A DNA stretch of 64,000 nucleotides from Erysipelothrix anatis (GTDB lineage Bacteria > Bacillota_I > Bacilli_A > Erysipelotrichales > Erysipelotrichaceae), in the NCBI RefSeq assembly GCF_009828745.1, contig NZ_WTSX01000004.1, forward strand, positions 62,001-126,000, given 5' to 3'. The translations under genes were made by a program, and so were the position numbers. The notes below the pieces were generated by a model that did not search any database, was not told the DNA's origin, and was given only the letters and a program-made list of their open reading frames with translations. Position 1 is the stretch's first letter, and every line of letters starts with the position of its first letter. Below, one piece after another: positions 24,040 through 60,902 of this stretch.

Positions 24040-24130
24040 GGGGATGTACTCAAGTGGCTGAAGAGGTGCCCCTGCTAAGGGTATAGGTCGGGTAACTGGC
24101 GCGAGAGTTCAAATCTCTCCATCCCCGCCA
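24040..24130 (+). tRNA. tRNA-Ser (GCT)
   Basis: 91 bases including an encoded CCA. The acceptor arms GGGGATG and CATCCCC pair, the anticodon loop CTGCTAA gives anticodon GCT, and there is a long variable arm as expected for serine. Confidence 0.95.
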
Positions 24131-24135
24131 TTAAT

Positions 24136-24211
24136 GGTCCAGTGGTGTAGCGGTTAACATGCCTGCCTGTCACGCAGGAGATCGCGGGTTCGATTCCCGT
24201 CTGGACCGCCA
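24136..24211 (+). tRNA. tRNA-Asp (GTC), copy 1
   Basis: 76 bases with encoded CCA. Acceptor arms GGTCCAG and CTGGACC pair, the anticodon loop is CTGTCAC (GTC), and the T-loop is TTCGATT. Identical to the copies at 24879 and 25131. Confidence 0.96.
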
Positions 24212-24219
24212 TTCGTATT

Positions 24220-24293
24220 GCAGGTGTAGTTCAATGGTAGAACACGACCTTGCCAAGGTTGAGGCGGGGGTTCAATTCCCCTCACCTGCTCCA
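24220..24293 (+). tRNA. tRNA-Gly (GCC), copy 1
   Basis: 74 bases with encoded CCA. Acceptor arms GCAGGTG and CACCTGC pair and the anticodon loop TTGCCAA gives GCC. Identical to the copy at 25214. Confidence 0.96.
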
Positions 24294-24306
24294 AATTGCA
24301 TAGCAC

Positions 24307-24331
24307 AGAGCGACATAGTCGCTCTTTTTTT
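24307..24331 (+). terminator. Terminator of tRNA unit 1
   Basis: AGAGCGAC-ATA-GTCGCTCT followed by a T-run, 13 bases after tRNA-Gly. Confidence 0.85.
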
Positions 24332-24425
24332 ATTTACATGAATAATACTCGATGTTTTTACCTTGACCTTAACAACATCTCACTATAAAATTCAAGTACA
24401 GATACCGATCGTAGAAGGAGCTATA

Positions 24426-24794
24426 ATGAACATAAATAATAAACTCAAACAATATGAATTAGATTTTCTTGATTTCGAATTTATAAGTTGCAAGGCAAAT
24501 GTCGAACAACGCATTGATCCGACATTCTTTGAACTAAAATCTGACGGTACACGACAAAATCGCGAAAGCGTTGTTAATTCGCTTTGCTCAACGGAACGTG
24601 ATCGAAACATTGACATTACCAATTTTATGATACAAGAAATTGGACCGAGTACATTTCTCATAAACTATGAATCTCGAAATCAAGAAGACCAAGAACATCT
24701 TGCACGAACTTCAATATGGCGTGAGCAAGATAATGATTTGAAATTACTCTTCCATCAAGCCACGATAATACAACCAGCGGTTGAGTTAGAGTAA
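24426..24794 (+). CDS. DUF4440/SnoaL-like small protein
   Basis: 122-residue cytoplasmic protein, probably of the NTF2/SnoaL-like fold; the order of motifs (IDPTFFELKSDGTRQNRESVV, then a C-terminal SIWREQDNDLKLLFHQAT) matches DUF4440 proteins as I remember them. The ATG at 24426 is chosen because AGAAGGAG lies five bases upstream; a longer frame from 24363 has no RBS. It sits between two tRNA units, with the next tRNA promoter starting 28 bases after its stop. Substrate and role are unknown. Confidence 0.7.
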   Translation: MNINNKLKQYELDFLDFEFISCKANVEQRIDPTFFELKSDGTRQNRESVVNSLCSTERDRNIDITNFMIQEIGPSTFLINYESRNQEDQEHLARTSIWREQDNDLKLLFHQATIIQPAVELE

Positions 24795-24821
24795 TATTTT
24801 AGACTATTTTCAAGAATAGTA

Positions 24822-24850
24822 TTGCCAAGATTAAAATCCTGTGTTAATCT
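24822..24850 (+). promoter_or_regulatory. Promoter of the solitary tRNA-Asp
   Basis: TTGCCA and TAATCT with a 17-base spacer, 28 bases before the tRNA. Confidence 0.65.
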
Positions 24851-24878
24851 ATAATCCGCTAAGGGTTGCAAATCAACT

Positions 24879-24954
24879 GGTCCAGTGGTGTAGCGGTTAA
24901 CATGCCTGCCTGTCACGCAGGAGATCGCGGGTTCGATTCCCGTCTGGACCGCCA
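24879..24954 (+). tRNA. tRNA-Asp (GTC), copy 2
   Basis: 76 bases, identical to copy 1 over its whole length including CCA. It stands alone between its own promoter and terminator. Confidence 0.96.
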
Positions 24955-24969
24955 TTCTTAGTCAATTGT

Positions 24970-24996
24970 GAGCGAATTCAATTCGCTCTTTTTTTT
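24970..24996 (+). terminator. Terminator of the solitary tRNA-Asp
   Basis: GAGCGAA-TTCAA-TTCGCTC followed by eight T residues, 16 bases after the tRNA. Confidence 0.85.
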
Positions 24997-25065
24997 ATAT
25001 TCATTTAATGAAGTTACTCTTTTCACACGTGTTTAATTGTATTTGCAAATAATTGCATTTTCTTG

Positions 25066-25094
25066 TTGCACTATGTATGTTCTTATGGTATTCT
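25066..25094 (+). promoter_or_regulatory. Promoter of tRNA unit 3 (Asp-Gly)
   Basis: TTGCAC and TATTCT with a 17-base spacer, 36 bases before the tRNA-Asp gene. Confidence 0.65.
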
Positions 25095-25130
25095 AAATGA
25101 GCACTAAGAAGTGCAGTCAATACAATGAAT

Positions 25131-25206
25131 GGTCCAGTGGTGTAGCGGTTAACATGCCTGCCTGTCACGCAGGAGATCGCGGGTTCGATTCCCGTCTGGA
25201 CCGCCA
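25131..25206 (+). tRNA. tRNA-Asp (GTC), copy 3
   Basis: 76 bases, identical to copies 1 and 2. It is followed seven bases later by tRNA-Gly, repeating the Asp-Gly order of unit 1. Confidence 0.96.
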
Positions 25207-25213
25207 TTCTATT

Positions 25214-25287
25214 GCAGGTGTAGTTCAATGGTAGAACACGACCTTGCCAAGGTTGAGGCGGGGGTTCAATTCCCCTCACCTGCTCCA
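25214..25287 (+). tRNA. tRNA-Gly (GCC), copy 2
   Basis: 74 bases, identical to the copy at 24220, with encoded CCA. Confidence 0.96.
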
Positions 25288-59364: not shown

Positions 59365-59393
59365 TTGACAACTTTCGATACATTCTATATGAT
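59365..59393 (+). promoter_or_regulatory. Promoter of the cysteine-leader/transporter transcript
   Basis: TTGACA (59365-59370) and TATGAT (59388-59393) with a 17-base spacer. Transcription would begin about 50 bases before the leader ORF. Confidence 0.75.
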
Positions 59394-59452
59394 TACATCG
59401 AAACATGTATCACATATATGTTTAATATGTTTTACGCATAAAGGGGATCAAA

Positions 59453-59509
59453 ATGGAAATTCTATGCTGCTGTACATTTTCAAACTATAACGGGAACACG
59501 AAAGTGTAA
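59453..59509 (+). CDS. Leader peptide with three consecutive cysteine codons
   Basis: An 18-codon ORF reading MEILCCCTFSNYNGNTKV, with TGC TGC TGT at 59465-59473 and TAA at 59507-59509. AAGGGGATCAAA precedes the ATG, giving a usable RBS (AAGGGG, 6-8 bases spacing). It lies between a good promoter and an intrinsic terminator upstream of a TcyP-like symporter gene. By analogy with trp and his leaders, stalling at the Cys codons when charged tRNA-Cys is scarce would favour read-through. The ORF is far below the size normally annotated. Whether it is translated is not shown by the sequence. Confidence 0.75.
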   Translation: MEILCCCTFSNYNGNTKV

Positions 59510-59530
59510 TTTTTTGCATGGCACATTTAA

Positions 59531-59550
59531 TCTCTTGCACAGATAAGAGA
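59531..59550 (+). promoter_or_regulatory. Leader hairpin between the Cys leader ORF and the terminator
   Basis: TCTCTT-GCACAGAT-AAGAGA, a six-base stem in the untranslated part. AUCUC in its left arm (59530-59534) can also pair with GAGAU (59557-59561) in the terminator's left arm, so it may switch between two structures. This needs folding calculations. Confidence 0.45.
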
Positions 59551-59556
59551 ATTCTT

Positions 59557-59582
59557 GAGATGTCATACGACATCTTTTTTTA
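59557..59582 (+). terminator. Attenuator terminator before the TcyP-like gene
   Basis: AGATGTC-ATAC-GACATCT followed by seven T residues, ending a few bases before the AAGGAGGAG of the transporter gene. Being inside the leader, it must be bypassed to transcribe the transporter gene, as in an attenuator. Confidence 0.8.
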
Positions 59583-59603
59583 TAAGGAGGAGAGAATTTT
59601 ATT

Positions 59604-60902
59604 ATGTCTACATACTTACCATGGATTGCATTCGCGACGACGCTCGTGGTGTTTGCATTTCTTCAACATTTGCGTAAGAAACGTGTGAATTTCGGGCTTC
59701 GCACGATTATTGCGATGGGCTTTGGATTGGTGATTGGATTTGTATTTCAAGGGAATACACAATACGTCACACCCTTTGGAACAATCTTTACACAATTAAT
59801 TTATGCAATTGTGGCGCCATTACTATTCTTCAGCATTATTTCAAGTATCGCGTCACTTAACAGTATTACCCGTCTTAAAACACTCGGTTTCCGATCAGTA
59901 TTTTGGTTACTGCTTAATACATTGATTGCAAGTACAATTACATTAATTGTTGCTACGAGCCTCAAACTTGGTTCTGGGTTTACCATTTCATTGCCAACAG
60001 ATTATGTTGCCCGTGAAGTTCCAACCTTTATAGATACAATTGTTGGATTTTTCCCAAGTAACTTGGTCAATCATGTTGCAAAGAATCAAATCATTCCGAT
60101 TATTATTTTCTCGGTAATGGTCGGTGTGGCTTTGGTCAAATTTAATACCAAAGATCATGAGGGCGCAAGTCCAATGATTCAATTCTTTGAATCTGCTAAC
60201 AAACTTACATATCGCGTTGTTAAATCAATTATCGCACTAACACCATTCGCTGTTGTTGCTTATATTGCGAACGTTCCCACACGTGATGGTGGAAAAGACC
60301 TTGCATCATTTGCAATGATTATTGTGATTGCCTATGCGATTAGTTTCTTCCAAGCCTTTGTTGTTCACGGTACATTAATTAGTGTATTCGCAAAAATGAA
60401 TCCAATTCGTTTCTTTAAAGCAATTTGGCCTGCTCAAGTGGTTGCCTTTACATCACAAAGCAGTATTGGAACGGTTCCAGTCGTCATCGAACAAGTCACA
60501 ACGAAACTTGGTGTCAAAGATGATATCGCAGGATTTGTTGCCGGACTGGGAGCCAATGTCGGTATGCCAGCATGTACTGGAATGTGGCCAGTTTTACTCG
60601 CCGTATTTAGTATTAACGCCTTAGGCATTCCATTCACTACACAACAATACTTATTATTAATTGTTTATACAGTTGTTGTTGGTTTGGGAACAGCCGGAGT
60701 TCCTGGAACTGCAACAATCGCAGCAACTGCCGTACTAACAGCTGCTGGACTACCTATTGAGATTATCTTTGTCTTGTCACCTATTTCGGCTATTGTCGAT
60801 ATGGCACGTACAATGGCAAACGTTACAGGATCAGCAACAGCAACCGTAATCGTGGCAACACGAGAAGGCGCAATCGAAGAACCTGTTCAAGCCGCTTCAT
60901 AA
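59604..60902 (+). CDS. Dicarboxylate/amino-acid:cation symporter, TcyP-like (probable cystine importer)
   Basis: 432 residues, eight main membrane helices plus two re-entrant hairpins. AFTSQSSIGTVPVVIE is like the TTQSSxGTLP hairpin of TcyP cystine transporters. GLGTAGVPGTATIAATAVLT is the second hairpin. AAGGAGGAG lies before the ATG at 59604. The Cys-codon leader ahead of it supports cystine or cysteine-related uptake; glutamate or other substrates of the DAACS family are not excluded. Confidence 0.85.
   Translation: MSTYLPWIAFATTLVVFAFLQHLRKKRVNFGLRTIIAMGFGLVIGFVFQGNTQYVTPFGTIFTQLIYAIVAPLLFFSIISSIASLNSITRLKTLGFRSVFWLLLNTLIASTITLIVATSLKLGSGFTISLPTDYVAREVPTFIDTIVGFFPSNLVNHVAKNQIIPIIIFSVMVGVALVKFNTKDHEGASPMIQFFESANKLTYRVVKSIIALTPFAVVAYIANVPTRDGGKDLASFAMIIVIAYAISFFQAFVVHGTLISVFAKMNPIRFFKAIWPAQVVAFTSQSSIGTVPVVIEQVTTKLGVKDDIAGFVAGLGANVGMPACTGMWPVLLAVFSINALGIPFTTQQYLLLIVYTVVVGLGTAGVPGTATIAATAVLTAAGLPIEIIFVLSPISAIVDMARTMANVTGSATATVIVATREGAIEEPVQAAS

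Follow-up and report, generated by a model that had tools for sequence, protein, structure and literature searches.

The locus lies in a 64,000-nucleotide stretch of a 2.19 Mb Erysipelothrix anatis genome (contig NZ_WTSX01000004.1; hereafter the window, whose coordinates are used throughout) and is formed, 5′ to 3′, by a promoter, an 18-codon ORF, a hairpin, an intrinsic terminator and a gene for an SDF/TcyP-like transporter (Table 1). The original prediction, made from this DNA alone, had named each of these parts, and all (promoter, 18-codon ORF with RBS, Cys codons 5–7, hairpin, terminator and transporter RBS) are found again in the sequence. The ORF begins ATG GAA ATT CTA TGC TGC TGT ACA TTT TCA AAC TAT and continues after this TAT (codon 12) with AAC GGG AAC ACG AAA GTG TAA, forming a translatable short ORF with an RBS and a run of regulatory codons, as an attenuator requires. 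Its hairpin has 9 bp in the minimum-energy fold, with both arms unchanged relative to Erysipelothrix aquatica. An intrinsic terminator stands between ORF and gene here and in four other Erysipelothrix genomes; the terminator-like stem (59557–59576) has 8 pairs, then a T tail. Relatives, too, have TTGACA and a −10 element ahead of their leaders.

Table 1. Features of the leader region and transporter gene, in window coordinates.
Feature	Position	Strand	Remarks
Sigma-A type promoter, TTGACA-17-TATGAT	59365–59393	+	11/12 matches
AT-rich inverted repeat, AAACATGTATCACATATATGTTTAATATGTTT	59401–59433	+	Between −10 and leader RBS
Leader ORF RBS, AAAGGGG	59440–59446	+	
Leader ORF, MEILCCCTFSNYNGNTKV	59453–59509	+	18 codons; Cys run kept in relatives
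Regulatory codons TGC TGC TGT (Cys 5–7)	59465–59473	+	Same in E. aquatica
Leader hairpin within ORF	59473–59508	+	UACAUUUUC (59473–59481) with GAAAGUGUA (59500–59508)
Candidate antiterminator	59518–59566	+	Three paired segments; predicted by folding
Intrinsic terminator, GAGAUGUC-AUAC-GACAUCUU and U run	59557–59581	+	
Transporter RBS (SD), AAGGAGGAG	59584–59592	+	
SDF (DAACS) family transporter gene, probable cyst(e)ine importer	59604–60902	+	432 aa

Taken singly these features are not rare, as would suit a chance ORF whose Cys codons and terminator are unconnected with regulation: a promoter scan does not rise above chance (3 found, 3.6 expected), a terminator scan lies near its chance count (2 found, 1.0 expected) and TGYTGYTGY is common in the genome (460 matches, against 255 in a reversed control). 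It is conservation, rather than any single-feature scan, that lifts the leader above chance. We searched the 240 nt upstream of 21 representative orthologues gathered from related genomes. At 11 of them a short ORF with neighbouring Cys codons follows an SD site; 300 shuffles that preserved dinucleotides averaged 0.15 such loci and never exceeded 3. The enrichment is limited to Cys, each of the other nineteen amino acids giving at most 3 loci among the same orthologues; the count leaves out single-Cys leaders (An173 ..FERCW, F. longum MGERMC and G097 ..NRCYYYF). In a genus-wide RBS-ATG-CCC search, all but one of the other in-frame hits inspected lie within genes or overlap a gene in a different frame. 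We therefore give the chance reading hardly any credence. The exception, near position 1565 of L112, is an E. inopinata intergenic ORF MQSCCCRGIKQFNNRRNMLGGLTLSYRLL with a GGAG site, before an apparent mgtA-type P-ATPase gene; it may be chance.

Cys-run leaders followed by a terminator precede the transporter in E. aquatica (MGIQCCC..), G003 (MNLVICCK..), E. inopinata (MNYFVKCCK..) and E. urinaevulpis (MKKSCCCK..), and also in G171, G209 and G109; together with our own locus these make up the terminator type, in which three genomes from two lineages lie outside Erysipelothrix. The conservation check proposed with the original prediction thus comes out in its favour, with Cys codons and terminator kept in four further Erysipelothrix genomes and also at greater phylogenetic distance; a search of close relatives for a terminator kept after loss of the Cys codons returned none. 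A transporter tree (36 sequences) gathers every Cys-leader locus into a single 26-member clade (support 100/100), and outside it the 39%-identical relatives of other families and Clostridium homologues have no Cys-run leader. Counting against an attenuator, the Erysipelothrix MAG orthologue L035, Sharpea and several Lachnospiraceae orthologues lack a Cys leader. Nor do we find one upstream of cysS in our genome and two relatives. L128, a 39% relative outside the clade, has an upstream short ORF, MFNIKLFRC, with a single Cys codon before its stop, which may be chance. Five orthologues from Clostridiales and Oscillospiraceae MAGs (L040, L044, L045, L047 and L049) share the upstream stretch ..CGATGTACGCGCCTCCTGGGG..GTCCCTGGGAGGGAC.., carrying in some of them an ORF with ..SVRCTRLLG..; the stretch appears to be a structured leader of a different type.

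The nearest named relative, E. aquatica VA92-K48, has a transporter that differs by one residue, the gene showing 50 differences, of which 47 are third-position and 1 is nonsynonymous. Its leader ORF has 4 changes, all nonsynonymous (E2G, L4Q, Y12D and G14W) and none in the Cys codons or the arms of the ORF hairpin; RBS and terminator are identical. Since four of four leader changes alter the peptide and spare these elements, the peptide appears free to vary while Cys codons and stems stay the same. With so few changes, the comparison serves only as supporting evidence for selection on the Cys codons.

In Firmicutes, CymR or T-boxes are the controls usually described for cysteine genes, and main control here could instead lie with a CymR/IscR-like Rrf2 repressor at the inverted repeat, the Cys ORF being minor or vestigial. 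Several Erysipelothrix species share the repeat in the same position, with no mismatches in our genome, E. aquatica and E. inopinata and two in E. urinaevulpis, and our genome has an Rrf2 gene, its CymR match under the cut-off, divergent from cysK (TIGR01139). Such a repressor would sit uneasily with a peptide that drifts everywhere except at its Cys codons, and Cys-run leaders are found where the inverted repeat differs; the two modes of control, moreover, are not exclusive. As the main control, we consider the repressor decidedly improbable. The repeat itself is a possible operator for a CymR/IscR-like Rrf2 protein, and a CymR-like regulon in Erysipelothrix is likewise possible. The cysK promoter has a similar AACATAGTTAACATAT, and a comparable repeat precedes a thioredoxin-like lipoprotein gene in two further Erysipelothrix genomes.

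The transporter matches PF00375 in Pfam (E=4.9e-98) and is closer to E. coli TcyP (31% identity, 159 bits) than to E. coli GltP (25%, 125 bits); it passes no NCBIfam equivalog cut-off. Outgroup homologues from Clostridium (L051 and L052, 38–40% identical) are preceded by T-box elements with specifier UGC (Cys), whose scores lie slightly under the family's gathering score. We calibrated the specifier position on T-boxes of our own genome (leuS CUC, ileS AUC, pheS UUC, valS GUC and serS UCU, the genes being named by reading their ORFs). In Clostridium perfringens, the symporter genes cysP1 and cysP2 have T-box (Cys) leaders, and their products could import cysteine or cystine (PMC2940859). On the combined strength of TcyP likeness, the Cys T-boxes of its homologues and the C. 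perfringens symporters, the transporter is likely a cyst(e)ine importer, an assignment drawn from sequence relationships. None of the 14 T-box matches of our genome precedes cysS. Two T-boxes, both with specifier CGC (Arg), stand in tandem before a substrate-binding lipoprotein gene of the same genome (L063, 1501–1709 and 1748–1954).

We consider it highly probable that the leader is a ribosome-mediated attenuator sensing the supply of charged tRNA-Cys. With ample cysteine, a ribosome would pass the Cys codons and reach the stop codon, the terminator would form and the transcript would stop ahead of the transporter gene. If charged tRNA-Cys ran short, the ribosome would stall at the Cys codons, the RNA between leader ORF and terminator would refold so that the 5′ arm of the terminator is paired upstream, and RNA polymerase would continue into the cyst(e)ine importer gene. 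We read directly the set and order of the parts, the conserved Cys codons and two output types among orthologues; ribosome stalling, read-through, the exact antiterminator and the substrate are what we infer.

The refolding step was modelled by placing a ribosome either on the Cys run, its last codon occupying the A site (footprint +12), or at the stop codon and computing the probability of the terminator. Three relatives are predicted to switch clearly, terminator probability rising from 0.00 (Cys) to 0.99 (stop) in G171, from 0.29 to 0.91 in G003 and from 0.34 to 0.90 in E. urinaevulpis; in G209 and G109 it is 0.76 and 0.75 with the second Cys of the pair in the A site, and 0.93 and 0.87 at the stop. 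Equilibrium folding gives no switch at our own locus (0.90 and 0.95) or in E. inopinata (0.97 at both positions); because it ignores co-transcriptional order, it neither proves nor excludes one.

The candidate antiterminator at our locus pairs AUGGCA (59518–59523) with UGUCAU (59561–59566) and UUUAA (59526–59530) with UUGAG (59555–59559), capped by UCUCUUG (59531–59537) with UAAGAGA (59544–59550), at a predicted −10.7 kcal/mol (−11.3 in E. aquatica). Two other pairings had been suggested originally, and neither is favoured by folding. AUCUC (59530–59534) with GAGAU is absent from the favoured fold, in which UCUCUUG is taken up by UAAGAGA; ACAUUUUCAA, just after the Cys codons, would lie largely beneath a Cys-stalled ribosome and otherwise pairs with GAAAGUGUA. 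Against dinucleotide-shuffled spacers the antiterminator of our own locus does no better than chance (p about 0.48); combined over six lineages, antiterminators beat shuffled spacers (Fisher p = 0.0098), a result owed largely to G171 and G003.

The chance-level result at our own locus leaves room for a regulatory Cys ORF that works here with no classic antiterminator, its translation mainly exposing or protecting the RNA (from a nuclease or Rho, for instance) or the stalled ribosome only hindering the terminator kinetically. Such a mechanism would also accommodate the strong hairpin of the ORF and the finding that the antiterminator is about equally competitive whether the ribosome stands at Cys or at the stop, except with a footprint of at least 15 nt, when a ribosome at the stop would cut it. 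The clear switching predicted in three relatives argues the other way, as does E. aquatica, where G59521A, the sole substitution within the candidate antiterminator, replaces a G-U pair by A-U and so keeps and improves the pairing. We judge this alternative unlikely and retain attenuation by a stalled ribosome as the preferred reading.

In some Thomasclavelia-like bacteria and Faecalibacterium the output is of a second type: next to the Cys codons lies a helix that covers the start region of the transporter gene. L109, from a Thomasclavelia MAG, has an ORF with the ending ..RCC, directly followed by UUAACUGUC; this arm pairs with GACAGUUAA, which spans the transporter region from SD to start. 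The corresponding arms in L046 (An173) are UAAACUGUC and GACAGUUUA, with one compensatory pair change relative to L109. The two Faecalibacterium loci have their start codon region covered by a helix that begins at most 10 nt from the last Cys codon. With Cys in the A site, predicted SD-AUG accessibility rises from 0.31 to 0.59 in L109 and from 0.41 to 0.63 in both L046 and L107; F. prausnitzii and the T. saccharogumia pair gain little, and F. longum, L106 and L108 gain nothing or lose accessibility. In L109, L046 and L107 the region would also be freed by a ribosome at the stop, so that there the model needs fast ribosome exit after termination. As modelled, translation-type output is well supported for some members and only suggested for others.

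The claim that a leader sensing Cys-tRNA controls cystine import is therefore supported, with two reservations. Cys codons kept together with a terminator, a second output within the clade and outgroup T-boxes with specifier UGC speak for it; the antiterminators first suggested are not favoured by folding, and the importer's substrate is assigned by relationship. For the lineage as a whole, we lean towards a history in which one group of Firmicute cystine importers kept its Cys-codon leader and shifted the output between termination and masking of the start region, with a Cys T-box outside the clade, such that sensor and output were exchanged independently. The clade would then offer a natural series in which the output of a leader peptide has moved between transcription and translation.

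Several known systems resemble parts of this arrangement. In mycobacteria, leaderless polycysteine short ORFs control cysteine-related genes (Canestrari et al. 2020, doi 10.1111/mmi.14498, as described in PMC13236596 and PMC9094748), and these share with our locus a short upstream Cys-run ORF and cysteine-responsive gene control. They differ in being leaderless, in serving biosynthesis operons and in acting on translation (PMC13236596), whereas the E. anatis leader has an SD site, an intrinsic terminator and a transporter gene; its ORF is not leaderless, with AAAGGGG at 59440–59446 in a 5′ UTR that follows the promoter. Cys-run leaders had been predicted earlier in Actinobacteria, with no terminator found (PMC1262725). 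The uORFC-8-2 motif upstream of cysS in Rhodobacterales (PMC8632094) combines tandem Cys codons in a uORF with an intrinsic terminator and proposed transcription attenuation; it differs in belonging to Alphaproteobacteria, in its target cysS and in a conserved two-stem structure that contains the Cys codons. The C. perfringens T-boxes likewise bring about cysteinyl-tRNA-dependent premature termination before a cyst(e)ine symporter gene, but sense the tRNA directly by base pairing with no leader peptide; RF00230 has no match in the window and is present elsewhere in the same genome. Among Bacilli, a His leader peptide upstream of hisS paralogues (PMC2965389) is a Firmicute precedent for amino-acid codons with a terminator where other species use a T-box, differing in its His codons and synthetase gene.

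No Rfam family matched the locus or those leaders of relatives that were searched, and the open-access literature searched gave no account of a Firmicute Cys leader or of one before a cystine importer gene. We regard the locus as well supported as a feature and of a known kind. A Cys leader-peptide attenuator on an importer would add another route of cysteine sensing in Firmicutes, and it gives a functional hint for the SDF transporter clade shared by Erysipelothrix and the gut bacteria Faecalibacterium and Thomasclavelia. Elsewhere in the window, a tRNA gene cluster (24040–25284) holds several genes with identical scores, as if they were repeated copies.
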